Positions 4 through 37,235 of a DNA stretch of 37,634 nt are shown in pieces. The stretch is from the NCBI GenBank assembly GCA_020720405.1, contig DYOS01000021.1:1-37634 (forward strand), read 5' to 3'. The notes beneath the pieces were generated by a model, which had not been told where the DNA came from, searched no databases, and worked only from the letters and a program-made list of their open reading frames with translations. The DNA is from Caldithrix sp. (GTDB lineage Bacteria > Calditrichota > Calditrichia > Calditrichales > Calditrichaceae). A program made the translations under genes and the position numbers. Each line of letters opens with the position of its first letter. The stretch's first letter is position 1.

Positions 4-50
4 AATAGCCATAGATAAAATCTATGGGAAAAGATGAAATCTGTGGATAG
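4..50. repeat. Dispersed intergenic repeat, diverged copy
   Basis: This stretch aligns by eye over its whole length, with one gap, to 34011-34057. Both read as a pattern of AATA-CC, then GAAA-CT-TGGGAAA, then TGAAA-CTGTGGA. The copy here has A/T at many places where the other has G/C. It lies upstream of the aminotransferase gene. The pattern resembles non-coding repeats scattered through many FCB-group genomes; that family assignment is from memory. Nothing else is recognised in the remaining bases up to the first gene. Confidence 0.5.
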
Positions 51-207
51 ATGAATTCTTTTGTAAAAGAAACTGACCTACGATAACCCCGGCAGTCCGT
101 ACCGGGCCGGGTAAACTGCCTTTATATCTTTCAATGGCATTTTTATGTTGGCAACGTTAAGTTTATATTTGATCAGAGCTTACCATCATTTTCCCAGAGG
201 TTGATCT

Positions 208-1338
208 ATGGATATCACCGAAATCCGCAAACTGTTTCCGATTACTGCCCAAAAAGTCTATCTCAATCACGCCGCTATTTCCCCGCTCTCCAGCCGGGTC
301 ACCGAAAAATTGGAGTGGTACATCGATGAACGTATGTTTGGGGTGGTTGATACACATGAATCCGCGGTGGGCATTCGCCATGACCTGCGCAAATCCGTCG
401 CCCGGCTGATCAACACCCAGCCGGAAAATATAGGTTTTGTCACCAATACTTCCGAGGGTTTTAACTGGCTGGTTCACGGTTTGAAGTGGCAGAAAGGTGA
501 TCAGGTTATCCTGTTCGATTATGAATTCCCGAGTAATATTTACCCTTTTCTGCAGCTCGAAAAACAGGGTGTGGAAATGGTCTGGGTTAAAAACCGGGAC
601 GGTGCCATTGATATTGATGATATTGAAGCGGCGATTACATCAAAAACCCGCCTGCTCTCGATCAGCTTTGTGGAATACGTCAATGGTTATCGCAACAATC
701 TGAAAGCCATCGGCGCACTGTGTAAGGCGCATCAGATTATTTTCTCGGTGGACGGCATACAGGGTAACGGCGCCCTGCATATGGATGTCTCCGAATTTCA
801 AATCGATTTTATGTCCAATGGTGCCGCCAAATGGCTGATGGGCACGATGGGCGTGGCTTTTGTTTACATCCGGCCGCAGCTGCTGCAAAGGCTCGAACCG
901 GCATTTGCCGGATGGTTGGGCGTAGAAAACGCCTGGGATTTTTCCAGCCATAAACTGGATTATCTGCCGGATGCCCGGCGTCTGGAAATTGCCACGGCCA
1001 ATTTTATGGGTATCACTGCCCTTTACGAATCGCTGGCCCTGCTGCTGGAAACGGGCCTGCCTCAGATTGAGGCACATCTGCTCCGGCTTGGCGATCAACT
1101 GATTAACGGTATGCGCAGGAACGGTCTTCAATTTATGGGCAGTGAAAATCCGGCCCGGCGCTCGGGCATAAGTTCTTTTTCCGGGAAGGATATCCCCGGT
1201 TTGGCTGACTTTCTGATGGCACGGAATATCATCTGCTCGGTACGCAACGGTTGGCTGCGCGTCTCACCGCATTTTTACAATTCCGAAGAAGAGATTCAGC
1301 GCATTATTGATGAAACTGCTTTATTTTATAATTCCTGA
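208..1338 (+). CDS. Class V aminotransferase (cysteine desulfurase/selenocysteine lyase-like), PLP-dependent
   Basis: A 376-residue fold-type I PLP enzyme of the class V aminotransferase family. The start matches the family N-terminus (YLNHAAISPLS). The segment FSVDGIQGNGALHMDV carries the aspartate expected to contact the PLP pyridine nitrogen, and the following SNGAAKWLMG supplies the candidate Schiff-base lysine. The C-terminal part (GISSFSGKDIPGLADFLMARNI) fits the small domain. Known members act as cysteine desulfurases, isopenicillin-N epimerase-like enzymes or kynureninase-like enzymes. No cysteine-bearing active-site loop of the IscS/SufS kind is obvious, so the substrate cannot be named. 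The cyclase gene starts 23 bp downstream on the same strand, which suggests co-transcription. The family is secure; the exact reaction is not. Confidence 0.85.
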   Translation: MDITEIRKLFPITAQKVYLNHAAISPLSSRVTEKLEWYIDERMFGVVDTHESAVGIRHDLRKSVARLINTQPENIGFVTNTSEGFNWLVHGLKWQKGDQVILFDYEFPSNIYPFLQLEKQGVEMVWVKNRDGAIDIDDIEAAITSKTRLLSISFVEYVNGYRNNLKAIGALCKAHQIIFSVDGIQGNGALHMDVSEFQIDFMSNGAAKWLMGTMGVAFVYIRPQLLQRLEPAFAGWLGVENAWDFSSHKLDYLPDARRLEIATANFMGITALYESLALLLETGLPQIEAHLLRLGDQLINGMRRNGLQFMGSENPARRSGISSFSGKDIPGLADFLMARNIICSVRNGWLRVSPHFYNSEEEIQRIIDETALFYNS

Positions 1339-14771: not shown

Positions 14772-16253
14772 ATGGAATACACAGAATTTCTGGAATTAGC
14801 CAAAACCTGCGACATCGTTCCGGTTTATGAATCCATCGCTGCTGATCTGCTGACCCCGGTTCTGGCTTACGCCCGTTTGCGACGGCCGGGACAATTCAGC
14901 TTCCTCCTCGAATCGGTTGAAGGTATTGGCCGTTTTGCCCGCTACTCCTTTTTAGGTCTGCAGCCGGATAAAATTATTCAGGCCACCGGAAAGACCCTGC
15001 ACATTTCCGAACATGGATCAAAACGTGAGGCAACAGGGAGTTTGTTCGAATACCTGCGCCGTGAAATGGCCGGTTTTCAAACGCCCCGGCTGGAAAATCT
15101 GCCGGCCTTTACCGGCGGTATTGTCGGTTATCTGGGCTACGAAACAGTTGCTCTGATCGAGGATGTTTTGTCTTTCAAAAATGAACACGAACTACAAACA
15201 CCTGATGCTATCTTTGGTCTTTTTCATACCATTCTGGCCTTCGATCATTACAACCACCAACTGATTCTGATTCACAACCTGCGGATCGACCGGCAGACTG
15301 ATCTGCGCGAGCAGTATGATCAGGCCCGTTTAAAACTGACCCGCCTGCGTCGGGAACTGGCCGGAGCGACCCATTTTGAACGGCGTTTTTCTGCGGAAAC
15401 TGAAGCGCCGGTTGATGATCGGGCTGAGGCTTTTTACAAAAAAGTACGGTCAGCCAAACAAAATATTCTCGATGGTGATATTTTTCAGATAGTGCTTTCC
15501 AGACGATTCAGCGCCGGGTACAGCGGTGATCTGCTCAACGTTTACCGCGCCCTGCGCATGATCAATCCCTCACCCTACATGTATTTCATGGAATTTGATT
15601 CCGGTTTCACCGTGATCGGTACGTCACCCGAAGACCTGCTTCGGGTGCGCGGCCGGACCGCAACCATTCTGCCCATCGCCGGCACCCGCAAACGGGGGCA
15701 ATCCGCGCAGCGGGATAAAGAGCTGGAGCTTGATCTGCTGAACGATCCCAAGGAAATTGCCGAACATATCATGCTGGTTGATCTGGCCCGTAACGATCTG
15801 GGCCGGGTCAGTAAAACCGGAACGGTGCAGGTGGTGGCCAATATGGAAGTGCATCGTTATTCACATGTTATGCATCTGGTTTCGCGGGTAGAAGGTGAAC
15901 TGGCCGCGGATAAAGACTGCATTGATGCGCTGATGGCGGCATTTCCGGCCGGGACTTTGACCGGCGCTCCGAAAATAAGAGCCATGGAACTGATTGAAGA
16001 ATCCGAGACGGTGCGCCGCAACGTTTATGGCGGGGCAGTTGGCTACATCGATTTTAGCGGAAACCTGGATATGTGCATTGCCATCCGCACCCTGTTTGCC
16101 AAAGATGGCAAAATTCACTGGCAGGCCGGGGCCGGTATTGTGGCCGACAGTCAGCCTGAAGCGGAGTACAAAGAAATCAATAACAAGGCGGCGGTTCTGC
16201 AGCAGGCGCTGGAATACGCCGGGGTGATCAATGAAGATTTTAGTGATCGATAA
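14772..16253 (+). CDS. trpE: Anthranilate synthase component I
   Basis: A 493-residue TrpE, first gene of the operon; with TrpG it converts chorismate and glutamine to anthranilate. The N-terminus carries the tryptophan feedback site motif LLESVEG. The chorismate-binding domain is complete: GTSPEDLLRVRG, LPIAGTRKRG, HIMLVDLARNDLGRV, FPAGTLTGAPKIRAMELIEE, YGGAVGYIDFSGNLDMCIAI and QAGAGIVADSQPEAEY. Length and motif order are normal. The ribosome site is weak (CGGA five bases before ATG). The 3' end overlaps trpG by 23 bp, which suggests coupled translation and 1:1 subunit output. Retention of the LLES motif implies feedback inhibition by tryptophan. Confidence 0.97.
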   Translation: MEYTEFLELAKTCDIVPVYESIAADLLTPVLAYARLRRPGQFSFLLESVEGIGRFARYSFLGLQPDKIIQATGKTLHISEHGSKREATGSLFEYLRREMAGFQTPRLENLPAFTGGIVGYLGYETVALIEDVLSFKNEHELQTPDAIFGLFHTILAFDHYNHQLILIHNLRIDRQTDLREQYDQARLKLTRLRRELAGATHFERRFSAETEAPVDDRAEAFYKKVRSAKQNILDGDIFQIVLSRRFSAGYSGDLLNVYRALRMINPSPYMYFMEFDSGFTVIGTSPEDLLRVRGRTATILPIAGTRKRGQSAQRDKELELDLLNDPKEIAEHIMLVDLARNDLGRVSKTGTVQVVANMEVHRYSHVMHLVSRVEGELAADKDCIDALMAAFPAGTLTGAPKIRAMELIEESETVRRNVYGGAVGYIDFSGNLDMCIAIRTLFAKDGKIHWQAGAGIVADSQPEAEYKEINNKAAVLQQALEYAGVINEDFSDR

Positions 16254-16800
16254 TTACGACTCGTTTACCTATAACCTGGTCCAATTGGCCGGACAGTTTG
16301 CCGCTGAAATGCTGGTTTACCGCAATGACCGGGTGACCATTGAAGAAATCCGCCAAATGCAGCCGGATAAAATCATTATTTCTCCGGGACCGGGCCGGCC
16401 GGAGGACTCCCATATTTCACTGACCGTAGTGCGCGAGCTGGGCTCAAAAATTCCAGTGCTCGGCGTCTGCCTTGGTCATCAGGGCATCGGTATTACTTTT
16501 GGGGCGCAGGTTATCCATGCGCCGTACCTGATGCACGGCAAGGCCTCCGCCATCCATCACGATGGTAAAACCATCTTCCGCGGTGTGGAGCAGAATTTTG
16601 CCGGCGGGCGTTATCATTCACTGATTATCGATCCGGCTACGCTGCCCGAAGAGCTGGAAGTATCGGCTCAAACCGCCGATGGGCTGATTATGGCTGTCCG
16701 CCACCGTCATTTCCCGATCGAAGGTATCCAATTTCATCCCGAGTCCATTCTGACCGGGCAGGGCGAAAACATTATCAAAAACTGGGTGGAATTATCATGA
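16231..16800 (+). CDS. trpG: Anthranilate synthase component II (glutamine amidotransferase)
   Basis: A 189-residue class I glutamine amidotransferase that supplies ammonia to TrpE. The triad is visible: nucleophile Cys80 in VLGVCLGHQ, His169 and Glu171 in GIQFHPES. Other family marks are VIDNYDSFTYNLVQ, IISPGPGRPEDS and GGRYHSLIID. It is a free-standing subunit, not fused to TrpD or TrpE. Its start lies inside trpE (23-bp overlap) and its stop overlaps trpD by ATGA. A shared role with folate synthesis (PabA) is possible since no separate pabA is visible here. Confidence 0.96.
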   Translation: MKILVIDNYDSFTYNLVQLAGQFAAEMLVYRNDRVTIEEIRQMQPDKIIISPGPGRPEDSHISLTVVRELGSKIPVLGVCLGHQGIGITFGAQVIHAPYLMHGKASAIHHDGKTIFRGVEQNFAGGRYHSLIIDPATLPEELEVSAQTADGLIMAVRHRHFPIEGIQFHPESILTGQGENIIKNWVELS

Positions 16801-17816
16801 AAGAAATGATTGAACATATCGCCGCCGGGCATGACCTGACCTTGGAGCAGGCTTACCAGGCTATGGATAAACTGATGAGCGGAGAAGTGAATGCCGTGCA
16901 GACCGCAGCATTTCTGACTGCATTGAAATGCAAGGGTGAGGCCGTGCCGGAAATAGCCGGTTTTGCCAAAGCCATGCGCGACAAAAGCATCAAAGTTCCG
17001 CTCAACGGTCTGAGAGCTGTTGATGTCTGCGGTACCGGCGGGGATCATTCGGGAACATTCAACATATCCACAGCGGCTGCCTTTGTGGTGGCCGGGGCCG
17101 GAGTGCCGGTGGCCAAGCATGGTAACCGTTCGGTTTCCAGCAGCAGCGGCAGCGCCGATGTGCTTATCGAAATGGGTGTGCCGGTCGAGCTGACACCCGA
17201 ACAAAGCGCAGCCGCACTGCATGAAGTGGGCATCACGTTTTTATTTGCCCCGCTGTACCACCCGGCCATGAAGCATGTGGCTCCGGTGCGCCGCGATCTC
17301 GGGCTGAAAACTGTATTCAATATTCTCGGACCGCTGACCAATCCGGCCGGAACCAGGCGGCAGATGATTGGCACATACAGCGCTGCCAGCGCTCAGAAAA
17401 TGGCCGCAGCAGCGGAAATGCTGGATATGGAAAAAGTTTGTTTTGTCTGTAATGGCGACCGTTTTGATGAGATTTTGCTCCATCAGCCGACCCGGGTTTT
17501 TGAATATTCACAGAAAAGCGGTTTGGCAGAGTATTCTGTTAGCGCGGCCGATTTCGGTTTTCCGCAGGTTGACCTGTCCGAGGTGCAGGGCGGTTCGCCG
17601 CAGAAAAACGCCGCAATACTGGAACAGATTTTAAGCGGTCAGGTGCTGAACGGTGCGGCTTATACCGTGCTGGCCAATGCCGCCATGGGATTATACGCTG
17701 CCGGATTATCTACCTCGCTAAAGGACTGTGCATCCGCGGCCACGGATGCCCTGAAGTCGGGTCGGGCCAGGCAAAAACTCCGTTCACTCCGGGAATTCGG
17801 GGCAGATAGGGCATGA
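16797..17816 (+). CDS. trpD: Anthranilate phosphoribosyltransferase
   Basis: A 339-residue enzyme that joins anthranilate to PRPP. The glycine-rich PRPP loop VCGTGGDHSGTFNIST and the block VAKHGNRSVSSSSGSADVL are intact, and HPAMKHVAPVRRDLG plus VFNILGPLTNPA complete the anthranilate and metal sites. Length is normal. It overlaps trpG by 4 bp (ATGA) and trpC by 4 bp (ATGA), so the operon is read by re-initiating ribosomes. Confidence 0.97.
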   Translation: MKEMIEHIAAGHDLTLEQAYQAMDKLMSGEVNAVQTAAFLTALKCKGEAVPEIAGFAKAMRDKSIKVPLNGLRAVDVCGTGGDHSGTFNISTAAAFVVAGAGVPVAKHGNRSVSSSSGSADVLIEMGVPVELTPEQSAAALHEVGITFLFAPLYHPAMKHVAPVRRDLGLKTVFNILGPLTNPAGTRRQMIGTYSAASAQKMAAAAEMLDMEKVCFVCNGDRFDEILLHQPTRVFEYSQKSGLAEYSVSAADFGFPQVDLSEVQGGSPQKNAAILEQILSGQVLNGAAYTVLANAAMGLYAAGLSTSLKDCASAATDALKSGRARQKLRSLREFGADRA

Positions 17817-18610
17817 GTATTCTGGCCGAAATTCTTGAGGTAAAAAAGGAAGAGGTGAAAGCCCTGCGCCGGCGCTACAGTCATGCCAGCTTTAATGATT
17901 TTGACCTGTTTCACCAACCGCGGCAGTCTTTTGATGCGGCTCTGCGCCGGGACGAGCGCCTGGCCATTATCACCGAAGTGAAAAAAGCCAGTCCCTCGGC
18001 CGGTCTCATCCGCCCCGACTTTGATGCCCTGGAAATTGCTGAAACCTATGCCCTGTTTGGTGCAGATGCGATTTCAGTTCTGACCGATGAACGGTTTTTC
18101 CAGGGTCATATTCGCTTTCTTGATCAGATTGCCCGGCAGAAAAAAAAGCCGCTGTTACGCAAGGATTTTATTATCGATGCATATCAGGTGCTCGAGGCCC
18201 GCGCTCACGGTGCCGATGCCGTTCTGCTGATCTGTGAAGCGCTCTCTGCTCCGCAAATCAGTGATCTATCCGCCGCAGCGGCCGAAAACGGATTGGATGT
18301 GCTGCTCGAATTACATGACCCGGGGCAGATCGAAAAGATCGATTTTAGGCGCAACCGGATTATCGGCATCAACAACCGTAATCTGGAAACCTTTGAAACC
18401 CGGCTGGAAACCACATTGCAGGTGGCGCGGCAGATTCCCACCGGATGTCTGCTGGTTTCAGAAAGCGGCATTACCGGGCCGGAAGCGCTGACAATTCTAA
18501 AAAATATGCGGCGGGTCAATGCCGTATTGGTTGGTGAACATCTGATGCGGGCCAGGGAAACCGGACCGGCTCTGGCCGAACTAAAAAAATGGTGTTTTTA
18601 TGAGAGTTAA
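17813..18610 (+). CDS. trpC: Indole-3-glycerol phosphate synthase
   Basis: A 265-residue TIM-barrel enzyme that closes the indole ring. Visible signature residues are Glu55, Lys57 and Ser60 in ITEVKKASPSAG, the strand LLRKDFIIDAYQVLEA with the catalytic lysine, IIGINNRNLETF and LLVSESGI. It is a separate gene, not fused to trpF as in enterobacteria. The trpF start lies within its last codons (11-bp overlap). Confidence 0.97.
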   Translation: MSILAEILEVKKEEVKALRRRYSHASFNDFDLFHQPRQSFDAALRRDERLAIITEVKKASPSAGLIRPDFDALEIAETYALFGADAISVLTDERFFQGHIRFLDQIARQKKKPLLRKDFIIDAYQVLEARAHGADAVLLICEALSAPQISDLSAAAAENGLDVLLELHDPGQIEKIDFRRNRIIGINNRNLETFETRLETTLQVARQIPTGCLLVSESGITGPEALTILKNMRRVNAVLVGEHLMRARETGPALAELKKWCFYES

Positions 18611-19244
18611 AATCTGCGGCATCACCAATGACAGCGATGCCCTGCTTTGCCAGCAAAACGGCGCCGATGCGATCGGCTTTATTTTTTACAAAAAAAGCCC
18701 GCGTTATATCACCCCGCAACAAGCCGCCGAAATAACGGCCCGGCTCTCGCCCTTTATGACCCGGGTCGGTGTTTTTGTGGATGAGCCGCTTGAACAGCTG
18801 CTGGAAACGGTGGCCCGGGCCGGTCTTCATGCTGTGCAATTACACGGGCAGGAATCACCGGAATATGTACAGCATATCCCGCTGCCGGTGATCAAATCCT
18901 TTCGCGTCACCACCGGTTTCGATTTCAGTCAGCTTGACCAATACCCCGGTTGTCATTTCCTGCTGGACAGCTACAGCAATAAGGTGTACGGCGGCAGTGG
19001 TCTGCGTTTCGACTGGAACCTGATTCCGGCGGAGTTACGAAGCCGGATTATCCTGGCCGGGGGGATCAACGCTGAAAATATTGTCCAGGTATTTCAGACT
19101 ATTCAGCCGGCAGCGGTGGATTTGTCCTCCGCCCTGGAACTGGAACCCGGGAAAAAAGATAGTTTAAAGGTTGAAGAATTTATGCGTGTGGTGCAGCAGT
19201 GGCGCAGCCGGCTGGCCAACCGTAAGGGAAAGGTTTCAGAATAA
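18600..19244 (+). CDS. trpF: Phosphoribosylanthranilate isomerase
   Basis: A 214-residue TIM-barrel isomerase (Amadori rearrangement). The general base Cys6 (VKICGIT) and general acid Asp123 (FLLDSY) are present, as are [21 protein letters not shown] and GGSGLRFDW. The late phosphate-loop motif reads [15 protein letters not shown], with Ala where most family members have Gly (SSGVE). This is a mild deviation that probably keeps function. It overlaps trpC by 11 bp and trpB by 1 bp (TAATG). Confidence 0.96.
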
Positions 19245-20455
19245 TGCCGGAAAATATAAGCTATAACTGGCCGGATGCCGCCGGCCGATACGGAGAATAC
19301 GGCGGAAAATTTGTCCCCGAAACACTGATCGGCGCCCTGCAGGATCTGGAAAAACTGTACCGCGAGAAGCGCAGCGATCCGCAATTTCTGGCCGAACTGG
19401 AAAGGCTGCAAAGTGATTATAACGGACGCCCGACCCCGCTGACTTTTGCTGAGCGACTTACCAAACATTACGGTCGGGCAAAAATTTATCTCAAGCGCGA
19501 AGATTTATGCCACACCGGGGCCCATAAACTGAATAATACCCTGGGTCAGATTCTGTTGGCCAAAGCCAGCGGCAAAACCCGCATTATCGCCGAGACCGGG
19601 GCCGGACAGCATGGTGTGGCTACGGCAACGGTTTGCGCCCGTTTTGGCCTGGATTGTGTGGTTTATATGGGCACCGTGGATATTGAACGGCAGAAACTCA
19701 ATGTCTTTCGCATGCAGATGCTCGGCGCCGAAGTCCGGCCTGTGGAATCAGGGTTGAAGACTTTAAAGGATGCCACCAACGAAGCCATCCGCGACTGGGT
19801 GACCAATGTGGCGGACACCCATTATATTATCGGTTCGGTGGTCGGGCCGCATCCCTATCCGCTGATTGTCCGCGATTTTCAGTCCGTTATCGGCCGGGAA
19901 ACACGCAGTCAGGTGCTGGCCAAAGAAGGCCGTCTGCCGGATTATCTGCTGGCCTGTGTCGGTGGCGGATCGAATGCTATCGGAATGTTTTATCCCTTTA
20001 TTGAAGACCGGTCGGTGCAATTGATTGGAGTGGAAGCGGCCGGACAGGGTATTGCTTCCGGGAAACATTGCGCTACTTTAACTTTGGGCCAGGCTGGTAT
20101 TTTTCAGGGCATGAAAACCTACCTGCTGCAAACCGCCGACGGACAGATTTCTGAAGTGCATTCCATCTCTGCCGGGCTGGATTATCCCGGTGTTGGTCCC
20201 GAGCATTCCTGGCTGAAGGATTTGCAACGTGCCCGGTATGCTGCGGTTACGGATGAGGAAGCCCTGCAGGCTGTAATTCGCTTGTCACGGCTGGAGGGCA
20301 TTTTACCAGCCCTGGAAACCGCCCATGCTGTAGCCTGGCTCGAAACCCTGATGCCGCAGACCAAAGCCGGAGAAATAGTGGTTGTAAACATCAGCGGACG
20401 CGGCGACAAAGATTTGAACACCATCATCCATGAATTAGGGAAACAGCCGCAATGA
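19244..20455 (+). CDS. trpB: Tryptophan synthase beta subunit
   Basis: A 403-residue PLP enzyme that condenses indole with serine. The PLP lysine is Lys95 in HTGAHKLNN. Other marks are [10 protein letters not shown], the phosphate-binding [10 protein letters not shown], the loop [18 protein letters not shown] and the C-terminal [10 protein letters not shown]. The length and the [13 protein letters not shown] motif indicate the TrpB1 type, which pairs with TrpA. Start and stop overlap trpF (1 bp) and trpA (4 bp). Confidence 0.98.
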
Positions 20456-28287: not shown

Positions 28288-31200
28288 TTACTTTTTCTTC
28301 AGCAGTCTCATACTCTCCAGGCTGCAATTGAACTCCTCCAGAAAGTAAGACGGATTCTGTATTTCCTTGCTATTAACAAATTTTATATCCAGCAACCCGC
28401 CGGCTTTAAAACCAGTCCGCAGAAAATTCATTTCATCCAAAGCCAGGCTCCAGGCTTCCAGCCAGATTTGCAGTTCTTTGCGCACTGATTTACCAGCATC
28501 GCTGTGCAGCAGAATATCGATATCACTGCCAGCCTGGGCGTTTCTGGTCTGGGTGCTGCCATAGAGGTACAAAGCTTTAATATCGAACCGCTTCATATCC
28601 ATCTGATGGGCCATCCGTTCAACCATATCAATCCGCCAGGCACTATGGTCGATAACCAGACCGAAGGATGTCTGAAATCCATCTTCGCTATAGAAATTCT
28701 GGTCCAGCCCCTGTGGGGAAAGTAAAGCCACGGCCCGTTCTTCCTCGGCATTCATCAATATCTTCAGAATTTGCCCGTTGGCGCTTTGTGCTATTTCGAT
28801 CACCTTAACCACATTGCTCAGGAAACTGTATCCGGGCAGGAAGTCGAGCAGCTGATTGGGCGATTCCTTGAAAAAACGAGTATTAAAAACAACATCTTTT
28901 TCATCAGGATACAGAGGCAGATAACGAATGCCGGCTTCAACCAGATCCTGGAAAAAATGGGTGCCAAAGGAAAGATCCGGTACATAGCTTCCTTTTTGCC
29001 GGGCGATTTCAATTAGAACTGCTGTGTTGTTAATATCCGAATAAGTAATGCTGACACCCAATTTGATGTCGCCGCGGCTGCCCCAGCGGCCCGGCCCCAT
29101 CAGGATAAACTGGTGCCTCGGCAGCAGGTTGTTTAACTGACCGACGATACGCCCGACACTGCGCAGATCATCCAGATCGCTGAGCAGAGTGTATTCGTCC
29201 GGATCGACATAAACGATATAATGAATATCCGGGACATGACCGTTGGAAATAAAGCGGTTGGCTGAAAAGACCAGTTTTTCAGCGGGAATTTCCCTGGGAA
29301 TTTTGGCTGGTTTGACATACCGGCTAAAACTTTGCGGGCGGCACTGGAGCAGGTAAAAATCTTTTCCGTCACTGGCAAATTCAATATCCACCGGAGAAGC
29401 CAGGGCATTCTGCAGGGCGCGTAATATGGCTGAAATTTCCCGCACGAATGGTGTGTCGGTGATCAGTCCGTCGAAGTTTACAGCCAGTTCCTCACGGGTA
29501 AAATCCGTATTAAAAAGCATGGGTTTGCGCAGATTCTGGTGCTCAACAATGTTGACCAGTTTTTCAATCAGCGGATAATCGTTTCCATACCGGCTGAAAA
29601 GGTCTTTGATTTCCAGAGTTTCAAAGGAATTGGTTTTCAGATTGAGTACATCAATTTTATGCGGTGAGTAATGCACCACATCGCTGATACTGATATTGGC
29701 CCGCAGACCGGGCTGACCCGGGGCAATCAGCACCGGATAATCGTCACTGAGCCGGTCAACGGCACGGGTGCCGAGCCCGGGCACCAGCCGCACCAAACCG
29801 TCTTCCCGCCGGATGCGCGGCGACCAGCGGAATTCATTATTACTAAAGGCTACACCGGCATAAATTGGGAAATAGTAATCGCCGATCTGCTGCCCGACCA
29901 CAGACTGAATCATAATACCCATTTCCTCATGGAAATCGAGCAGACCGCGTTCGGCCCGGTATTCGATCGGGTCGGGACCGATGGTCGAGGCATACACCTC
30001 GGCGATGGCATCCATCAGTGCTTCGAGCCGTTCATGCTTGCTGCCCTGATTGGCCAGGAAAAGACTTTTATATTTACCACTGAAAGCCGAGCCGAGCCGG
30101 TCTTCCAGCAGCGATGAACTTCGCACAATCAGCGGTTGTGTGCCGAAATCATCGAGCGCCATGGAAATGCCCTGAATCAGGTCGGGCGGGAAGTGGGAGT
30201 TCTTGAAAAGCTGAACCACATGCGGGTATTCCTTGCGCACCTCATCGATGTTTTTGTATTTCTGCTCGGTGATCTCCTCGAGGTTATTGTAATTCATAAA
30301 ATGAATCAGACCATCGGAGGTGATGTACCAGGTTTTTGGGATTTTTATATGGGTCAGCATTTCCGTGTATTTCTCGGATTCCTGCAGAATACGGTTGGCC
30401 AGGAAGAGACCGGCGCTTTTACCGCCTAATTTACCATGGCTGCCGGTTGGGAAAATGGTGGTTTCCAGGATGGTTTTGAAATCGATGACACGGACAAAAT
30501 TCTTGGCAATATTGATAAACTCAACCTGGTCGGTAAAAAAACGCCGGATTAGCGCGGCCCGAACCCCGATGCGCACGGCCGGAGCCAGTTCGATCCCGGC
30601 CGGGTTGAGTTGGTAATAGCGGCGGATTGCCTCGCTGATATCGGTCAGAGAACTCTCGTTATTGGAAATGGCCTTGACCAGGAAACTGGTTTTATCCTGC
30701 TGCATCCATTTCTGGATATGGCTTAGAATCTGATGATCGTTTAAATATTTACTGGCGATTTTAAAAATTTTCTGATTGAAGTCGGATGATTTCTGGGCCG
30801 ACCGTTTGCGCAGGGGGACATTAGCCTCGCCAAATAAATCAACCTCTTCCGGTTTGGCATAGGGATTATATTGCTGCAGGAGATATTCGGCTTCTTGGAT
30901 GCCGTTCCAGACCAGGTGGTTCAGCATTTTCCGTGAAATGCGGCTGTAGGTGTCGGGATCGGTCCGGTCGAGCAGGTCGAGTATTACCTTCCATTCGCCG
31001 CCGGTAGTTTGGCCGGAAATGCTCTGCTTGGTCGTTTCCCAGCGGTTAAAGACCATTTTCAGCTTTTGGTACATAATATGATGACCGAGGCGCAGGGCAA
31101 TATCTGCTAAAAGCTGTACTTCATCCGGCAGGAAGGGTCCGGCTCCGGCTACCGGACGTTCTTCGGTATAATAAACTTTGATCCAGCCGACGACCTGTTC

Positions 31201-31473
31201 CTGTACGATCAGGTCATTATTCAGAAACCAGGTTGACTCCTGAAAATCGTTGGAGACAAACACCTGTTCCCGATAAATTATTTTCACCCGGCAGACATCC
31301 GGATATTGAAAACCGGCCGGAATAACCTTTACCGCATCGCGGAAGATATCGTCCAACGGACTGTTGCTGCGGTGCAGAATCTCTTCGATTTCATACATGC
31401 AGTTCATTTCTTTGACCCGCTCTTCCAGCGAGCCGATCAATTGATCCAATGATTTATTGCCTGGTGCCATCAT
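28288..31473 (-). CDS. PEP/pyruvate-binding (PPDK_N) protein with C-terminal nucleotidyltransferase domain
   Basis: A 1061-residue cytoplasmic multidomain protein. Residues about 1-150 look like a GAF-type sensor after a short helix. A helical region follows (150-340). From about 345 to 745 is a PPDK N-terminal ATP-grasp domain: GKLGGKSAGLFLANRIL, then IVRSSSLLEDRLGSAFSGKY and DIEFASDGKDFYLLQCRPQS. A conserved block LMGPGRWGSRGDIKLGV to LSFGTHFFQDLVEAGI lies at about 795-865. The end (about 960-1000) is a Pol-beta-type nucleotidyltransferase, LYLYGSTQTRNAQAGSDIDI, with G-S and D-x-D. The swivelling phosphohistidine domain (TSHxA) and the PEP barrel of true PPDK are missing. The reaction is unknown. 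A GGGGA precedes two adjacent ATGs (31473, 31470). Confidence 0.85.
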   Translation of the reverse strand: MMAPGNKSLDQLIGSLEERVKEMNCMYEIEEILHRSNSPLDDIFRDAVKVIPAGFQYPDVCRVKIIYREQVFVSNDFQESTWFLNNDLIVQEQVVGWIKVYYTEERPVAGAGPFLPDEVQLLADIALRLGHHIMYQKLKMVFNRWETTKQSISGQTTGGEWKVILDLLDRTDPDTYSRISRKMLNHLVWNGIQEAEYLLQQYNPYAKPEEVDLFGEANVPLRKRSAQKSSDFNQKIFKIASKYLNDHQILSHIQKWMQQDKTSFLVKAISNNESSLTDISEAIRRYYQLNPAGIELAPAVRIGVRAALIRRFFTDQVEFINIAKNFVRVIDFKTILETTIFPTGSHGKLGGKSAGLFLANRILQESEKYTEMLTHIKIPKTWYITSDGLIHFMNYNNLEEITEQKYKNIDEVRKEYPHVVQLFKNSHFPPDLIQGISMALDDFGTQPLIVRSSSLLEDRLGSAFSGKYKSLFLANQGSKHERLEALMDAIAEVYASTIGPDPIEYRAERGLLDFHEEMGIMIQSVVGQQIGDYYFPIYAGVAFSNNEFRWSPRIRREDGLVRLVPGLGTRAVDRLSDDYPVLIAPGQPGLRANISISDVVHYSPHKIDVLNLKTNSFETLEIKDLFSRYGNDYPLIEKLVNIVEHQNLRKPMLFNTDFTREELAVNFDGLITDTPFVREISAILRALQNALASPVDIEFASDGKDFYLLQCRPQSFSRYVKPAKIPREIPAEKLVFSANRFISNGHVPDIHYIVYVDPDEYTLLSDLDDLRSVGRIVGQLNNLLPRHQFILMGPGRWGSRGDIKLGVSITYSDINNTAVLIEIARQKGSYVPDLSFGTHFFQDLVEAGIRYLPLYPDEKDVVFNTRFFKESPNQLLDFLPGYSFLSNVVKVIEIAQSANGQILKILMNAEEERAVALLSPQGLDQNFYSEDGFQTSFGLVIDHSAWRIDMVERMAHQMDMKRFDIKALYLYGSTQTRNAQAGSDIDILLHSDAGKSVRKELQIWLEAWSLALDEMNFLRTGFKAGGLLDIKFVNSKEIQNPSYFLEEFNCSLESMRLLKKK

Positions 31474-31628: not shown

Positions 31629-31859
31629 ATGCCACAGATTTCTCTTTATATAGACAGCACTACTTTACAGAAAATTGTAGCTGCCGCCAGAGCGAAAAAT
31701 CAATCCGTATCAAAATGGGTTGCCGAACAGTTGAGAACGAAAGTTGATCCGGTTTATCCGCACGGTTTCGATCAGCTTTTCGGTTCAATCCGCGATGAAA
31801 ACTTTGTTGAACCATCCGAATTGAAGTTGAGTGATGATTCTGAACGGGTGGATTTTTAA
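31629..31859 (+). CDS. vapB: VapB-type antitoxin
   Basis: A 76-residue antitoxin. The first half (ISLYIDSTTLQKIVAAARAK, QSVSKWVAEQL) is a ribbon-helix-helix fold; the C-terminal tail, acidic and with FDQLFGSIRDENFVEP, would wrap the PIN toxin. It is immediately followed by vapC with a 1-bp overlap (TAATG), so the pair is made from one message and coupled. As usual for such pairs it should repress its promoter as a complex with VapC. Confidence 0.88.
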   Translation: MPQISLYIDSTTLQKIVAAARAKNQSVSKWVAEQLRTKVDPVYPHGFDQLFGSIRDENFVEPSELKLSDDSERVDF

Positions 31860-32257
31860 TGTATTTTCTGGATACCAATACCTGTATTTTTTACCTGAAC
31901 GGTACATCGGAAGCAGTTCGGGACCGGATTCTGGCCTGTCCACCGGATCAGATAAAAATTCCATCTATCGTTAAGGCTGAATTAGTATTTGGTGTTTATA
32001 AAAACCAGAACCGTGGAAGTAATTTAAAAAAATTGGAAGCCTTCCTGTCATCGTTCGAAATGGTGCCATTTACCGATTTTATGACTTACATCTATGCTGA
32101 TATTCGCCAGAAGACTGAACAAACCGGCCAGATTATAGGACCAACTGATTTACTTATTGCCTCAATTACCCTGTATCATACGGCAGTCCTGGTTACCAAC
32201 AATACAACTGAATTCAGAAGGGTTGAAAATCTTTATCTGGAAGATTGGACCAAATAA
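31859..32257 (+). CDS. vapC: VapC-type PIN-domain ribonuclease toxin
   Basis: A 132-residue PIN-domain toxin. The acidic pocket is visible: Asp5 (YFLDTNTCIF), Glu41 (IVKAELVFGV) and Asp97 (IGPTDLLIAS). The ending LVTNNTTEFRRV ... LYLEDW is the hallmark of the VapC group that cleaves initiator tRNA; the fourth acidic position is Asn here, as in many members. The gene is intact, so the module may be active. Target specificity is inferred from motif likeness. Confidence 0.92.
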   Translation: MYFLDTNTCIFYLNGTSEAVRDRILACPPDQIKIPSIVKAELVFGVYKNQNRGSNLKKLEAFLSSFEMVPFTDFMTYIYADIRQKTEQTGQIIGPTDLLIASITLYHTAVLVTNNTTEFRRVENLYLEDWTK

Positions 32258-32391: not shown

Positions 32392-33678
32392 TTAAACCCA
32401 GCCGCGGTCTTTTACTGCCTGGGCTACCCGGCCGATGGAGATAACATAAGCCGCATCCCGCATGTAAAGTTTCCGGCTGCGGGCCAGATCGCTCACCGCC
32501 CGGAAACCGGTGGTCATCTTGGTATCCAGCTTGGACAGCACTTCCTCTTTTTCCCAGAAATAATTCATATTCGACTGAACCTGCTCAAAATAGCTGCAGG
32601 TTACGCCGCCGGCATTAGCCAGAAAATCGGGAATAATAAAAATACCGCGCTTTGAAATCTCGGCATCAGCATCCGGTGTTGTCGGTCCATTGGCGCCTTC
32701 ACCAATAATTTTGACACTCTTTTTAATGCTGTTAACGGTTTCACCGGTAACCTGGTTTTCAATAGCTGCCGGCAGAAGAATATCAACTTCCTCTTCAATC
32801 CAGGCATTACCGGCCAGTTTTAGGTAACCGAGATCCTGTGCTTTTTTAGGATCGATACCGCCGAAACGGTCGGTAATACTGCGCAGTTCATTCAGGTCAA
32901 CACCGGTTCTCTTCTTATAGGTATAAGAGGTTTGGTCGTTCTGATCCCAGCAGGAAACAGCAGTGACCGTTCCGCCCAGCTGGGTGAATTTTTCAATGGC
33001 ATATTGGGCAACATTGCCAAAACCCTGAACGCTGGCCGTGGTATTTTTAGGATCGAGATTCATATCTTTCAGCGCTTCGCGGATGGTGTAGATCAAACCG
33101 TAACCGGTGGCTTCGGTCCGTCCCAGTGAACCACCCATGCCGACCGGTTTGCCGGTGATAAAGCCAGGGTAACGTCCGCCGTGGATCACTTCAAATTCGT
33201 CGAGCATCCATAACATGTGCTGACCGTTGGTCATAACATCCGGGGCCGGAACATCGGCCAGAGGGCCGACATTTTTAGCAACCTGACGTACCCAGCCGCG
33301 GCAAATCTGTTCCTGCTCACGCAGACTGAGATGATGCGGATCGCAGATAACGCCGCCTTTGCCGCCGCCCAGCGGAAGATCAACTACCGCGGTTTTCCAG
33401 GTCATCCACATGGCCAGGGCGCGCACGGTGTCTACGGTTTCCTGCGGATGGAAGCGGATACCGCCCTTAGCCGGACCGCGGGCGTCGCTGTGCTGAACCC
33501 GGAAGCCGCGGAAGACTTTTGTTGTGCCGTCATCCATTCTGACCGGAATCAGGAAATGAAATTCACGTACCGGTTCGCGCAAAAATGATTTGGCACCGGC
33601 ATCCAGACCAATCAGGTCGGAGACTTTATCAAATTGTGATTGAGCCATTGCAAAGGCATTGAATTCTTTACTTGCCAT
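32392..33678 (-). CDS. gdhA: Glutamate dehydrogenase
   Basis: A 428-residue hexameric-type glutamate dehydrogenase that interconverts glutamate and 2-oxoglutarate plus ammonia. The substrate domain carries RGFRVQHSDARGPAKGGIRF, the catalytic-lysine block LPLGGGKGGVICDP and LADVPAPDVMTNGQHMLW. The Rossmann domain shows SVQGFGNVAQYAIEKF, followed by a charged residue-poor strand end; cofactor preference cannot be decided. PAAIENQVTGETVNSI and IIGEGANGPTTPDAD complete it. An AAAGGA ribosome site is 8 bases before ATG. It is monocistronic and ends at a strong terminator. Confidence 0.96.
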   Translation of the reverse strand: MASKEFNAFAMAQSQFDKVSDLIGLDAGAKSFLREPVREFHFLIPVRMDDGTTKVFRGFRVQHSDARGPAKGGIRFHPQETVDTVRALAMWMTWKTAVVDLPLGGGKGGVICDPHHLSLREQEQICRGWVRQVAKNVGPLADVPAPDVMTNGQHMLWMLDEFEVIHGGRYPGFITGKPVGMGGSLGRTEATGYGLIYTIREALKDMNLDPKNTTASVQGFGNVAQYAIEKFTQLGGTVTAVSCWDQNDQTSYTYKKRTGVDLNELRSITDRFGGIDPKKAQDLGYLKLAGNAWIEEEVDILLPAAIENQVTGETVNSIKKSVKIIGEGANGPTTPDADAEISKRGIFIIPDFLANAGGVTCSYFEQVQSNMNYFWEKEEVLSKLDTKMTTGFRAVSDLARSRKLYMRDAAYVISIGRVAQAVKDRGWV

Positions 33679-34074: not shown

Positions 34075-35160
34075 CTATTGTTGCAACGGATAACCGAATG
34101 CGTTGAACGTAAAAGCCCATTCGGTATTTATCTGGCGGATACTTTCATCATTTAATTTTGGGTGTTCATTTTTCTTGTATGGTGCCTGATTTTCGAGCCA
34201 TTTCTGCAGCACCGGTTCATAAGCCGGCCAACCGTCAAGCTGTAAAGTCTCATAAATTTTTCTGATCTGACCCGCCTTGTCCTGCTCGAAATCTTCAAAG
34301 CGCAGCTCGCATAATTGTCCCGGACGAAGCAAGGCGCGGTCGGCCAGATAAGCTTCGTACATGACCTTGTATTGTTGAATAATCAGTTTGCGGTCTTTGG
34401 TTGAATCTCTGTGCTGCATGGAAAGATGGCTCACGGTGTGTTGGTAAAGCTGCTCTGTTGAACGGTAAACCTCATACGGATTGCGGATAAGATGAATAAA
34501 CCTGGCCTCGGGGAAGTGGCGGAGCAGCGTTTTTATTCTGGCCGTATGTTGTGGAGATTTGAGCAGAAGTGTTTTATTGTACTTCAGAGTCAGTTTTTTT
34601 AGAAAATAGACCATACTCGCCGCCCATTCGTCAGCTTCCTTTTCGGAAATGTTGAGCAGAGTCAGGTAACGCTCGTAGAATTCTTCCCGGGCCGGGAAAG
34701 CCCAGGCCAGAACCGGTGATTTGAGAGAGAGCAGACTCAGGCCAAATTCATCCTCAGCGGGATCAGAGAAACGGATCATCATATTATCCATCGGCCTTTT
34801 TGCAGCTTCGAGTTTATCCAGATAGCGGCGAATTTTGGGTTCAAGGCTCAAAAAGGTCCACGGATTATAGGTTTCGAGCATATTGGGATAGGCGAACTGT
34901 TCATCAAAAGCCAGAAGTTTGTGCAGCAGAGAAGTGCCGCTTCGCCAGTGGCCGAGGACAAAAACCGGCGCTTGCTTAATTTCCGTTGCCAGAATAGCCT
35001 GTTCAAAATGGCGCAATTCCTGTCTGGCTAGAACGCTGTTGCGCAGACTGAGGATAAGCAGCTTCAGGTAATCCGGCCAGTATTGACCATGACTTTTTCC
35101 AATATTATCAGTAAAAACCTGTTTAAACTGCCTAAATCTTAACCCGGTTAATGTTTCCAT
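34075..35160 (-). CDS. Sulfotransferase family protein
   Basis: A 361-residue PAPS-dependent sulfotransferase-like enzyme. The 5'-phosphosulfate loop is FVLGHWRSGTSLLHKLL near residues 67-83. The 3'-phosphate site is ARFIHLIRNPYEVYRST, in the middle of the protein, preceded by TLLLKSPQHTARIKTLL. A C-terminal helix region completes it. There is no signal peptide, so it should act in the cytoplasm on a lipid, glycan or small molecule. Relatives of this type (PF13469) are widespread; the acceptor is unknown. A weak AAGG lies 6 bases before ATG. It is divergent from ygiQ (185 bp between starts). Confidence 0.9.
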   Translation of the reverse strand: METLTGLRFRQFKQVFTDNIGKSHGQYWPDYLKLLILSLRNSVLARQELRHFEQAILATEIKQAPVFVLGHWRSGTSLLHKLLAFDEQFAYPNMLETYNPWTFLSLEPKIRRYLDKLEAAKRPMDNMMIRFSDPAEDEFGLSLLSLKSPVLAWAFPAREEFYERYLTLLNISEKEADEWAASMVYFLKKLTLKYNKTLLLKSPQHTARIKTLLRHFPEARFIHLIRNPYEVYRSTEQLYQHTVSHLSMQHRDSTKDRKLIIQQYKVMYEAYLADRALLRPGQLCELRFEDFEQDKAGQIRKIYETLQLDGWPAYEPVLQKWLENQAPYKKNEHPKLNDESIRQINTEWAFTFNAFGYPLQQ

Positions 35161-35345: not shown

Positions 35346-37235
35346 ATGATAAAAGATAAAACAGCCTGGCTGCCGATCACCAGAGAAGAAACGGAATTAC
35401 GCGGCTGGCATGATCTGGATGTGGTTTTGATTTCTGGTGATGCCTATATCGACCACCCGGCTTTCGGAACAGCGGTGATTGGCCGTATTCTGGAACAGGA
35501 AGGTTTGCGCATCGCTATTGTGGCGCAGCCCAACTGGCAGGACGACCTGCGTGATTTTAAAAAATTTGGTCAGCCGAAACTGTTTTTCGGTGTCACTGCC
35601 GGGGCCATGGATTCCATGGTCAACCATTACACCGCCCGGAAACGGCAGCGCTCGGATGATGCCTACACACCGGGTGGTCAACCCGGTTTCCGACCCGATT
35701 ATGCAACCACGGTTTACACCCAGATTCTGAAAAAATTATTTCCGGAAGTACCGGTAATTATCGGCGGCATTGAGGCTTCGCTGCGCCGGGTTACGCATTA
35801 CGATTACTGGTCTGACCAACTAAAACCAGGTATCCTTATCGAGAGCGGAGCTGATTTACTGGTCTATGGTATGGGCGAACAACCACTGCGCGAAATCATC
35901 CGTCTGCTGCGTCGTGGTGTACCTTTTTCTTCGCTGAAAACCATTCCTCAGACTGCATTTTTGCAAAGAAGCGATGAACCGCTGCCGAAGAATAAAAACT
36001 GGGCAGATTTCCGATTGAGTAGTCACAAAGAATGTCTGGAGTCGAAAAAAAAGTTTGCAGCAAATTTTAAACATATTGAACAGGAATCGAATAAGCAGTT
36101 TGCCCGCCGCCTGCTGCAGGACGTAAACCAGCAGCGTTTAGTAATTAATCCGCCTTACCGGACCATGACTACTGCAGAAATTGACGCCTCATTTGACCTG
36201 CCCTTCACCCGGATGCCGCATCCCAAATACAACAAACGCGGACCAATTCCGGCCTATGTTATGATCCGTCACTCGGTGAACACTCATCGTGGTTGTTTTG
36301 GTGGATGCAGCTTCTGTACTATTTCGGCCCACCAGGGAAAAATGATTGCCAGCCGGTCTGAAGAATCCATTCTGCGCGAAGTGCAACAAGTAACACAAAT
36401 GCCCGATTTTAAAGGCTTTATCAGTGATCTCGGCGGACCTTCAGCCAATATGTACAAGATGAAAGGGAAAGTGCAGGCAATCTGTGACCGCTGCGTCAGT
36501 CCCTCCTGTATCCACCCGACCATCTGTCACAATCTGGATATCAATCATCAGCCAATGATCGATCTCTACAGAAAGGCAGCGCAGATTGATGGTGTCAAAA
36601 AAGCCTTCGTCTCCAGCGGAATCCGTTATGATCTGCTGGTGGCTGCGGATGAAAAGCAGGACCGGGAGAATCATTTAACCGGCTATATGGAACAGATCAT
36701 CCGCCATAATATTCCGGGCCGGTTAAAGGTCGCACCCGAGCATACGTCCGGGGATACACTCAAGCTGATGCGCAAGCCTTCTTTTGGATTTTTTCACCGT
36801 TTTAAAAAGAAATATGAGGAAATCAACCACCGGGCCGGACTCGATCAACCGCTGATTCCCTATTTTATTTCAGGTCACCCCGGCTGCGGCATGGAAGATA
36901 TGGCCGAGCTGGCCGCCGAAACCAAAGAGATGGGTTTTCAACTGGAACAGGTGCAGGATTTTACCCCGACACCGATGACCCTGGCCACGGAAATCTATTA
37001 CTCCGGATATCATCCGTACACGATGAAGGAATTCCGAACAGCGCGTTCTGTGCAGGAGAAAAAAGAACAAAGCCTGTTTTTTTTCTGGTATAAAAAGGAA
37101 AATCAGGGCTGGATTGAAAAGGTGCTGACCAGTCTGGGCCGGCTGGATTTGCTGACCCGCCTGCTGCCCGGCCGGGGGAAGAAAAGTAAAAATAATTCCG
37201 GGAAACCGGCCGGCAGAATGCGGTTCCCCGGGTAA
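35346..37235 (+). CDS. ygiQ: YgiQ-family radical SAM protein
   Basis: A 629-residue radical SAM enzyme of the YgiQ (UPF0313) family. The N-terminal domain begins WLPITREETELRGWHDLDVV and LISGDAYIDHPAFGTAVIGR, the family hallmark, and has VIIGGIEASLRRVTHYDYW. The 4Fe-4S site is RGCFGGCSFCTISAHQG near residue 316. LDINHQPMIDLYRKAAQID, RLKVAPEHTSGDTLKLMRKP and the C-terminal QDFTPTPMTLATEIYYSGY complete the pattern. The biochemical role of YgiQ is not established. The basic C-terminal tail (RGKKSKNNSGKPAGRMR) is typical. Only a weak ribosome site precedes the start. Confidence 0.93.
   Translation: MIKDKTAWLPITREETELRGWHDLDVVLISGDAYIDHPAFGTAVIGRILEQEGLRIAIVAQPNWQDDLRDFKKFGQPKLFFGVTAGAMDSMVNHYTARKRQRSDDAYTPGGQPGFRPDYATTVYTQILKKLFPEVPVIIGGIEASLRRVTHYDYWSDQLKPGILIESGADLLVYGMGEQPLREIIRLLRRGVPFSSLKTIPQTAFLQRSDEPLPKNKNWADFRLSSHKECLESKKKFAANFKHIEQESNKQFARRLLQDVNQQRLVINPPYRTMTTAEIDASFDLPFTRMPHPKYNKRGPIPAYVMIRHSVNTHRGCFGGCSFCTISAHQGKMIASRSEESILREVQQVTQMPDFKGFISDLGGPSANMYKMKGKVQAICDRCVSPSCIHPTICHNLDINHQPMIDLYRKAAQIDGVKKAFVSSGIRYDLLVAADEKQDRENHLTGYMEQIIRHNIPGRLKVAPEHTSGDTLKLMRKPSFGFFHRFKKKYEEINHRAGLDQPLIPYFISGHPGCGMEDMAELAAETKEMGFQLEQVQDFTPTPMTLATEIYYSGYHPYTMKEFRTARSVQEKKEQSLFFFWYKKENQGWIEKVLTSLGRLDLLTRLLPGRGKKSKNNSGKPAGRMRFPG

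Follow-up and report, generated by a model that had tools for sequence, protein, structure and literature searches.

Glutamate dehydrogenase (GDH) connects carbon and nitrogen metabolism, and to our knowledge no dedicated covalent control system like the one acting on glutamine synthetase has been established for it in bacteria. In the nitrogen phosphotransferase system, EI-Ntr (PtsP) contains a GAF sensor and a phosphohistidine relay tied to nitrogen status, and its phosphate is taken from PEP and handed to NPr. VadK (Rv1127c) of mycobacteria is a truncated PPDK-derived ATP-grasp/histidine protein without the PEP domain, which autophosphorylates and is proposed to regulate the enzymes of the methylcitrate cycle through binding (PMC13400623). 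In rifampin phosphotransferase (RPH), the residues Lys22, Arg117 and His825 were found to be essential or catalytic (PMC4844700), and in the two-component dikinase HpeHI, which phosphorylates phenolics, the ATP-grasp is split from the swivel and substrate parts (PMC12167813). The MNT proteins nucleotidylate protein partners (PMC7641770, PMC11586414).

The window (the whole stretch of 37,634 nucleotides that was analysed) was found to encode a 1061-aa protein that shares single parts with each of these systems. The likeness to VadK, drawn from its architecture as described, lies in the ATP-grasp and histidine domain, the absence of a PEP/pyruvate domain and the proposed control of a metabolic enzyme, and by this analogy VadK would be the closest functional precedent for a PPDK-derived regulatory kinase. 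However, VadK controls the methylcitrate cycle, whereas the 1061-aa protein contains GAF and nucleotidyltransferase (NTase) arms, a fixed GDH partner, a histidine domain too diverged for sequence recognition and, in many genomes, a short paralog. With RPH, PEP synthase and PPDK it shares the ATP-grasp fold, the ATP-site residues and, in the full-length alignments, a region (part of residues 724-930) superposing on their swivel domain, but the rifampin-binding domain, the PEP barrel and the TSHxA motif are not present. The GAF domain of PtsP (3trc) was among the fold matches of the N-terminal domain, whereas the 1061-aa protein uses an ATP-grasp instead of PEP. The stand-alone ATP-grasp component of HpeHI (9goj) was among the nearest solved structures, whereas in the GDH-linked module the short and the long protein each carry an ATP-grasp and a histidine domain. 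With the MNT antitoxins of HEPN-MNT systems (PMC7641770, PMC11586414) the protein shares the minimal fold of Pol-beta nucleotidyltransferases and the GS and D-x-D motifs, but this fold occurs here as the C-terminal domain of a large protein and no HEPN partner was seen.

Domain architecture of the 1061-aa protein

The protein was found to contain a GAF domain followed by a helical linker, an ATP-grasp, a swivel-like domain and a nucleotidyltransferase, encoded at the following positions.

28288..31473, minus strand: whole gene, 1061 aa; ORF with relatives 49-63% identical over the full length
31006..31449, minus strand: GAF-type sensor, residues 9-156; model and structure matches 3cit, 4g3k and 3trc
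29308..30552, minus strand: PPDK-type ATP-grasp, residues 308-722; Pfam PPDK_N, 5hv1 match and conservation
28684..29304, minus strand: probable diverged swivel-like domain, residues 724-930; model and full-length alignments to 2ols, 1dik and 5hv3
29071..29097, minus strand: GPGRWGSRG block, residues 793-801; G795, R796 and G798 invariant or nearly so (153 sequences)
28957..28959, minus strand: codon of H839, candidate phosphohistidine in S-x-G-[ST]-H-F-F; conservation and position at a helix start
28300..28647, minus strand: MNT-like nucleotidyltransferase, residues 943-1058; Pfam, Foldseek to MNT antitoxins and active-site conservation

An alignment of 46 sequences showed a mean column identity of 63%, and the ORF is far from chance. 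The full-length structure model (mf3748c5f69b8), likewise built from 46 aligned sequences, had a mean pLDDT of 82. Residue conservation was scored in 153 family sequences, in which the short, receiver-domain, NTase-less and fourth (703-aa) forms were included. The search of the plasmid collection for relatives returned distant matches only.

A GAF-like sensor had been claimed for the N-terminus in an earlier sequence-only reading of this DNA, and the GAF fold was confirmed at model residues 11-156, where the best solved match was 3cit (Z 12.9, rmsd 2.3, 123 residues), followed by many further GAF structures. The claim that the ATP-binding half of PPDK is retained was borne out by the presence of PPDK_N (PF01326) at residues 348-725 (E=4.7e-60, above the curated Pfam cut-off), and the ATP-grasp model matched 5hv1 with Z 26.2 and rmsd 2.9 over 297 residues. 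The nearest solved ATP-grasp folds were those of RPH, PEPS and HpeI, which are small-molecule kinases. The ATP-site residues K352, R451, E698, Q710 and R712 were found to be invariant or nearly so (about 152 sequences), and by motif context the ATP site would correspond to Lys22 and Arg117 of RPH. The TSHxA motif and the PEP barrel are absent, as had been stated; no Pfam barrel match was found, and the ATP-grasp is followed just by the 724-930 domain and the NTase, which leaves no room for a barrel.

The C-terminal Pol-beta-type nucleotidyltransferase, also foreseen, was found to contain Pfam Polbeta (2.2e-6, residues 961-1015) and NTP_transf_2 (2e-4), both above the cut-offs, and its fold was nearest to the MNT antitoxins 8xeh/8xeo (Foldseek E 3.5e-3, prob 1.0). 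Among 79 sequences the active site contained conserved GS (G972-S973, 77/79), D984 (75/79), D986 (72/79) and D1029 (75/79), and the ATP-grasp catalytic residues were conserved more strictly than these acids. The NTase scored 22.2 bits against the NCBIfam MntA antitoxin equivalog cut-off of 60. A stand-alone 284-aa GAF and NTase protein without the ATP-grasp was found at L121:714-1568 (minus strand), in a genome that also encodes the full-length protein.

The domain at residues 724-930 and the conserved histidine

Residues 724-930 were found to fold confidently, with a pLDDT of 90.6 when modelled alone for three subfamilies. The full-length model was aligned to PEP synthase 2ols over model residues 308..854, to PPDK 1dik over 311..930 and to rifampin phosphotransferase 5hv3 over 264..919 (chain -7..866), and these alignments extend through part or most of the 724-930 domain. 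Since the swivel domain of 5hv3 is at its far C-terminus, the superposition of this region is not a matter of mere sequence adjacency. The domain alone gave weak structure matches (best Z 5.4, rmsd 3.5, 106 residues), and its match list contained many RraA, chaperonin apical and PA-type domains with Z under 6. In SCOP, these three kinds of domain share the swivelling beta/beta/alpha fold with the phosphohistidine domains; given the low scores, the matches are only suggestive of a swivelling fold.

The sequence and fold searches of the domain returned little. Foldseek with the domain alone gave no match better than E 0.001 and listed no phosphohistidine domain; profile-profile comparison with the swivel domains of PPDK, RPH-like proteins and PTS enzyme I from the own phylum gave nothing significant, and its profile against the PDB sequences gave chance matches only. 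No match to PF00391 (PEP-utilizers) was found in 91 family members, and residues 724-930 matched no Pfam family.

The GPGRWGSRG block, reported as conserved in the earlier reading, was indeed near-invariant among the relatives, and G795, R796, E822, S835 and H839 of the domain were invariant or nearly so in the 153 family sequences. H839 was the sole universally conserved histidine (152 of the 152 sequences covering the position). In the model it opens the helix 838-847, placed between the strands 819-823 and 850-854, and in a comparison by eye this is where swivel domains would have their catalytic histidine; in RPH the counterpart would be His825. From its position, the full-length superposition and the invariant histidine, the region is probably a diverged phosphohistidine domain of the swivel type, which would supply the ATP-grasp with a candidate phosphate carrier. 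The sequence-only reading had described the protein as lacking the phosphohistidine domain; this is probably wrong, since a folded domain sits in the swivel place, superposes partly and carries H839, and the other members of its parts list (GAF-like N-terminus, PPDK-type ATP-grasp, GPGRWGSRG block and nucleotidyltransferase) were retained. The structure prediction of the C-terminal part, which it had suggested, gave the NTase fold as expected, together with a probable swivel domain so strongly diverged that it is undetectable by sequence.

Glutamate dehydrogenase and the wider family

The next same-strand gene upstream of the 1061-aa ORF, inside the same window and missed by the earlier reading, was found to encode a GDH. 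Two short ORFs lie between the partners and outside the module.

32392..33678, minus strand: glutamate dehydrogenase, 428 aa, conserved upstream partner; Pfam ELFV_dehydrog 1.5e-69, synteny and co-occurrence
31859..32257, plus strand: VapC-like PIN-domain toxin; Pfam PIN 1.6e-14
31629..31859, plus strand: VapB-like 76-aa ORF, directly preceding the PIN gene; assigned by position only

Of the 70 loci with room upstream, 66 contained a same-strand GDH in that position; among the remaining four, L025 contained a divergent GDH, and L023 and L068 lie near contig ends. The usual order in the relatives was GDH, followed mostly by a 580-600-aa ATP-grasp/histidine paralog and then by the GAF/NTase gene, with ends that often overlap. 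The gap between GDH and its partner is usually too short for a VapBC-like pair in the relatives, so that the pair appears to have been inserted into a conserved operon. The MAG labels of the relatives covered more than ten phyla, among others Calditrichota, Acidobacteriota, Zixibacteria, Ignavibacteria, Bacteroidales, Aminicenantes, Krumholzibacteria, Planctomycetota and Spirochaetes.

The GDH subtype was found in 23/23 genomes with the protein vs 1/76 without it in the Acidobacteria group (99 genomes from the phylum of one Acidobacteria-labelled locus; Fisher 1.3e-21), in 7/7 vs 0/63 in Bacteroidota (70 genomes from the phylum of one Bacteroidales locus; Fisher 8e-10) and in 30/31 vs 0/9 in the own phylum (4e-8), and the pattern repeats in these three phyla although the p-values are inflated by kinship among the genomes. 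In the single own-phylum exception (G037) a contig end truncates the gene. Genomes without the protein mostly keep GDHs, but of other subtypes only (below about 55% identity), and G008, G010, G019 and G023 were found to contain two copies of the GDH subtype and two copies of the partner. The link between the ATP-grasp/histidine protein and GDH is very well supported. Residues specific to the partnered GDH subtype were found (e.g. H115, M149, W244, Y285, W293 and Q366), none of which was singled out as a modification site.

Paralogs of about 1000 aa were found to contain receiver-like domains ahead of an ATP-grasp/histidine unit like that of the GAF/NTase protein. Some GDH, of other types, was present within 6 kb of 30 of the 43 receiver-type paralogs, the receiver domain having been checked in three of them and the others assigned by length and alignment. 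One stretch (G014) contained a GDH, an about 1000-aa paralog and a second GDH in succession, and in Parabacteroides distasonis a paralog named "PEP/pyruvate-binding domain-containing protein" was oriented divergently to one gdhA, and another gdhA lies close by. Versions without the NTase, and some without the GAF domain too, still adjoin GDH; hence the constant parts are the ATP-grasp, the histidine domain and GDH, and the GAF, receiver and NTase domains are interchangeable arms. As an optional module, the nucleotidyltransferase is missing from both the short and the receiver-domain paralog and from several GDH-adjoining versions, so that the pairing of ATP-grasp and nucleotidyltransferase, on which the sequence-only reading had based its interpretation, is not the core of the system.

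A fourth subfamily of about 700 aa, with GRTGS and YGTHF motifs, was found at L126:4265-6376 and in L127, and no GDH was found in the neighbourhood covered. Histidine-kinase-like proteins near the module (L047:2536-3747 and L001:8911-10365) were found to share a stretch related to its GAF domain.

Proposed role, alternative readings and the rest of the window

The preferred reading, at a probability of roughly 0.55, is that the protein transfers phosphate through a histidine under the control of its sensor, with the NTase as an optional arm, and serves as a dedicated regulator of the neighbouring GDH. The domain content, the invariant catalytic residues, the folds of the parts, the gene order and the linkage to a single GDH subtype are computed results. 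From the sequence we infer phosphotransfer by the ATP-grasp/histidine module; H839 may be the phosphate carrier, the role may be regulatory and not catalytic, GDH may be the target and the NTase a second layer. The GAF domain would sense a nitrogen or energy metabolite and thereby gate a PEPS/PPDK-type reaction, in which the ATP-grasp would move phosphate from ATP onto H839 of the diverged swivel-like domain. The phosphohistidine signal is assigned to GDH because no PEP/pyruvate or other small-molecule acceptor domain is present in the chain; it would reach GDH through phosphotransfer or phosphorylation-dependent binding, delivered by the protein alone or in complex with the short ATP-grasp/histidine paralog where present. 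The MNT-like NTase may act as this second layer, adding a nucleotide to, or taking one off, either GDH or the module. The presence of a GAF or REC sensor in the long forms speaks for regulation, and sensor-gated transfer from ATP to histidine, together with the lack of a small-molecule acceptor domain and the tie to GDH, is best read as GDH control. The sequence-only reading had proposed a regulated enzyme or signalling protein outside carbon metabolism, and its direction was right as to the missing PEP synthesis, the real NTase and the GAF sensor, with the swivel-type domain and GDH overlooked. A wider claim, an undescribed GDH control in more than ten phyla in which the ATP-grasp/phosphohistidine protein phosphorylates or binds GDH and the MNT-type domain nucleotidylates the same target, is offered tentatively and is doubtful as a whole.

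Gene order would be the same whichever partner acts on the other, and a GDH pathway would produce this pattern too. The main rival, which we hold to be unlikely, is a small-molecule dikinase or ligase in a GDH pathway, merely tuned by the GAF and NTase domains. The operon linkage is compatible with it, the nearest solved folds are small-molecule kinases, and HpeHI is a split two-component version that recalls the short/long pair (PMC12167813); however, the long, short and receiver forms are all without a recognisable acceptor-binding domain, two unrelated kinds of sensor domain and several different GDH types are associated, and the most populated ORF clusters near the loci contained no further conserved pathway genes. 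It is likewise unlikely that residues 724-930 form a new acceptor or ligase domain in which R796, E822 and H839 are a second active site, e.g. joining glutamate to something: the sequence link to swivel domains is missing, the structural scores of the domain alone are weak, and the invariance of R796, G798, E822, S835 and H839 together exceeds the needs of a plain phosphate carrier, but in the full-length alignments the region falls on the swivel domains of three families, among them RPH with its non-adjacent one, and its strand-helix order is swivel-like, with the histidine at the helix start by eye.

That the NTase is the business end, nucleotidylating GDH as GlnE does glutamine synthetase, with the ATP-grasp only as sensor or scaffold, is improbable; the domain keeps GS, D-x-D and the third acid and the stand-alone GAF-NTase protein occurs, but NTase-less versions remain by GDH, the short and receiver-domain paralogs have no NTase, and the stricter conservation is that of the ATP-grasp. 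The reading as a divergent but otherwise ordinary PPDK or PEP synthase was rejected and has almost no likelihood left: the PPDK_N domain and weak NCBIfam PEP synthase matches would suit it, but the best PEP-synthase equivalog score was 51.7 bits vs a cut-off of 598, no PEP barrel is present and the own genome encodes a separate full-length PPDK of 892 aa with TSHAA.

The GDH subtype and the large sensor/kinase-like/nucleotidyltransferase protein are almost never apart across widely separated phyla, and the related ATP-grasp protein by gdhA in gut Bacteroidota (Parabacteroides distasonis) makes the question testable in culturable organisms. If true, the preferred reading would give a GDH counterpart of the GlnD/GlnE control over glutamine synthetase, a second case after VadK of a PPDK engine serving as metabolic regulator, and a function for a domain without a family. 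No description of the architecture or of a PPDK-like/GDH operon was found in the open-access literature, with subscription papers mostly outside it, which is weak evidence of novelty. The interest given to the gene by the earlier reading was justified for another reason, namely the conserved link to GDH of a putative phosphotransfer module whose carrier domain is probably diverged and not missing.

Beyond GDH, the window was found to contain a sulfotransferase-family protein (34078-35160, minus strand) followed by a radical SAM protein with Radical_SAM_N and DUF3362 (35346-37232, plus strand). A tryptophan biosynthesis run was present at 14772-20452 (plus strand), containing anthranilate synthase component I, a glycosyltransferase-family-3 enzyme of the anthranilate phosphoribosyltransferase type and a PLP enzyme of the tryptophan synthase beta type.
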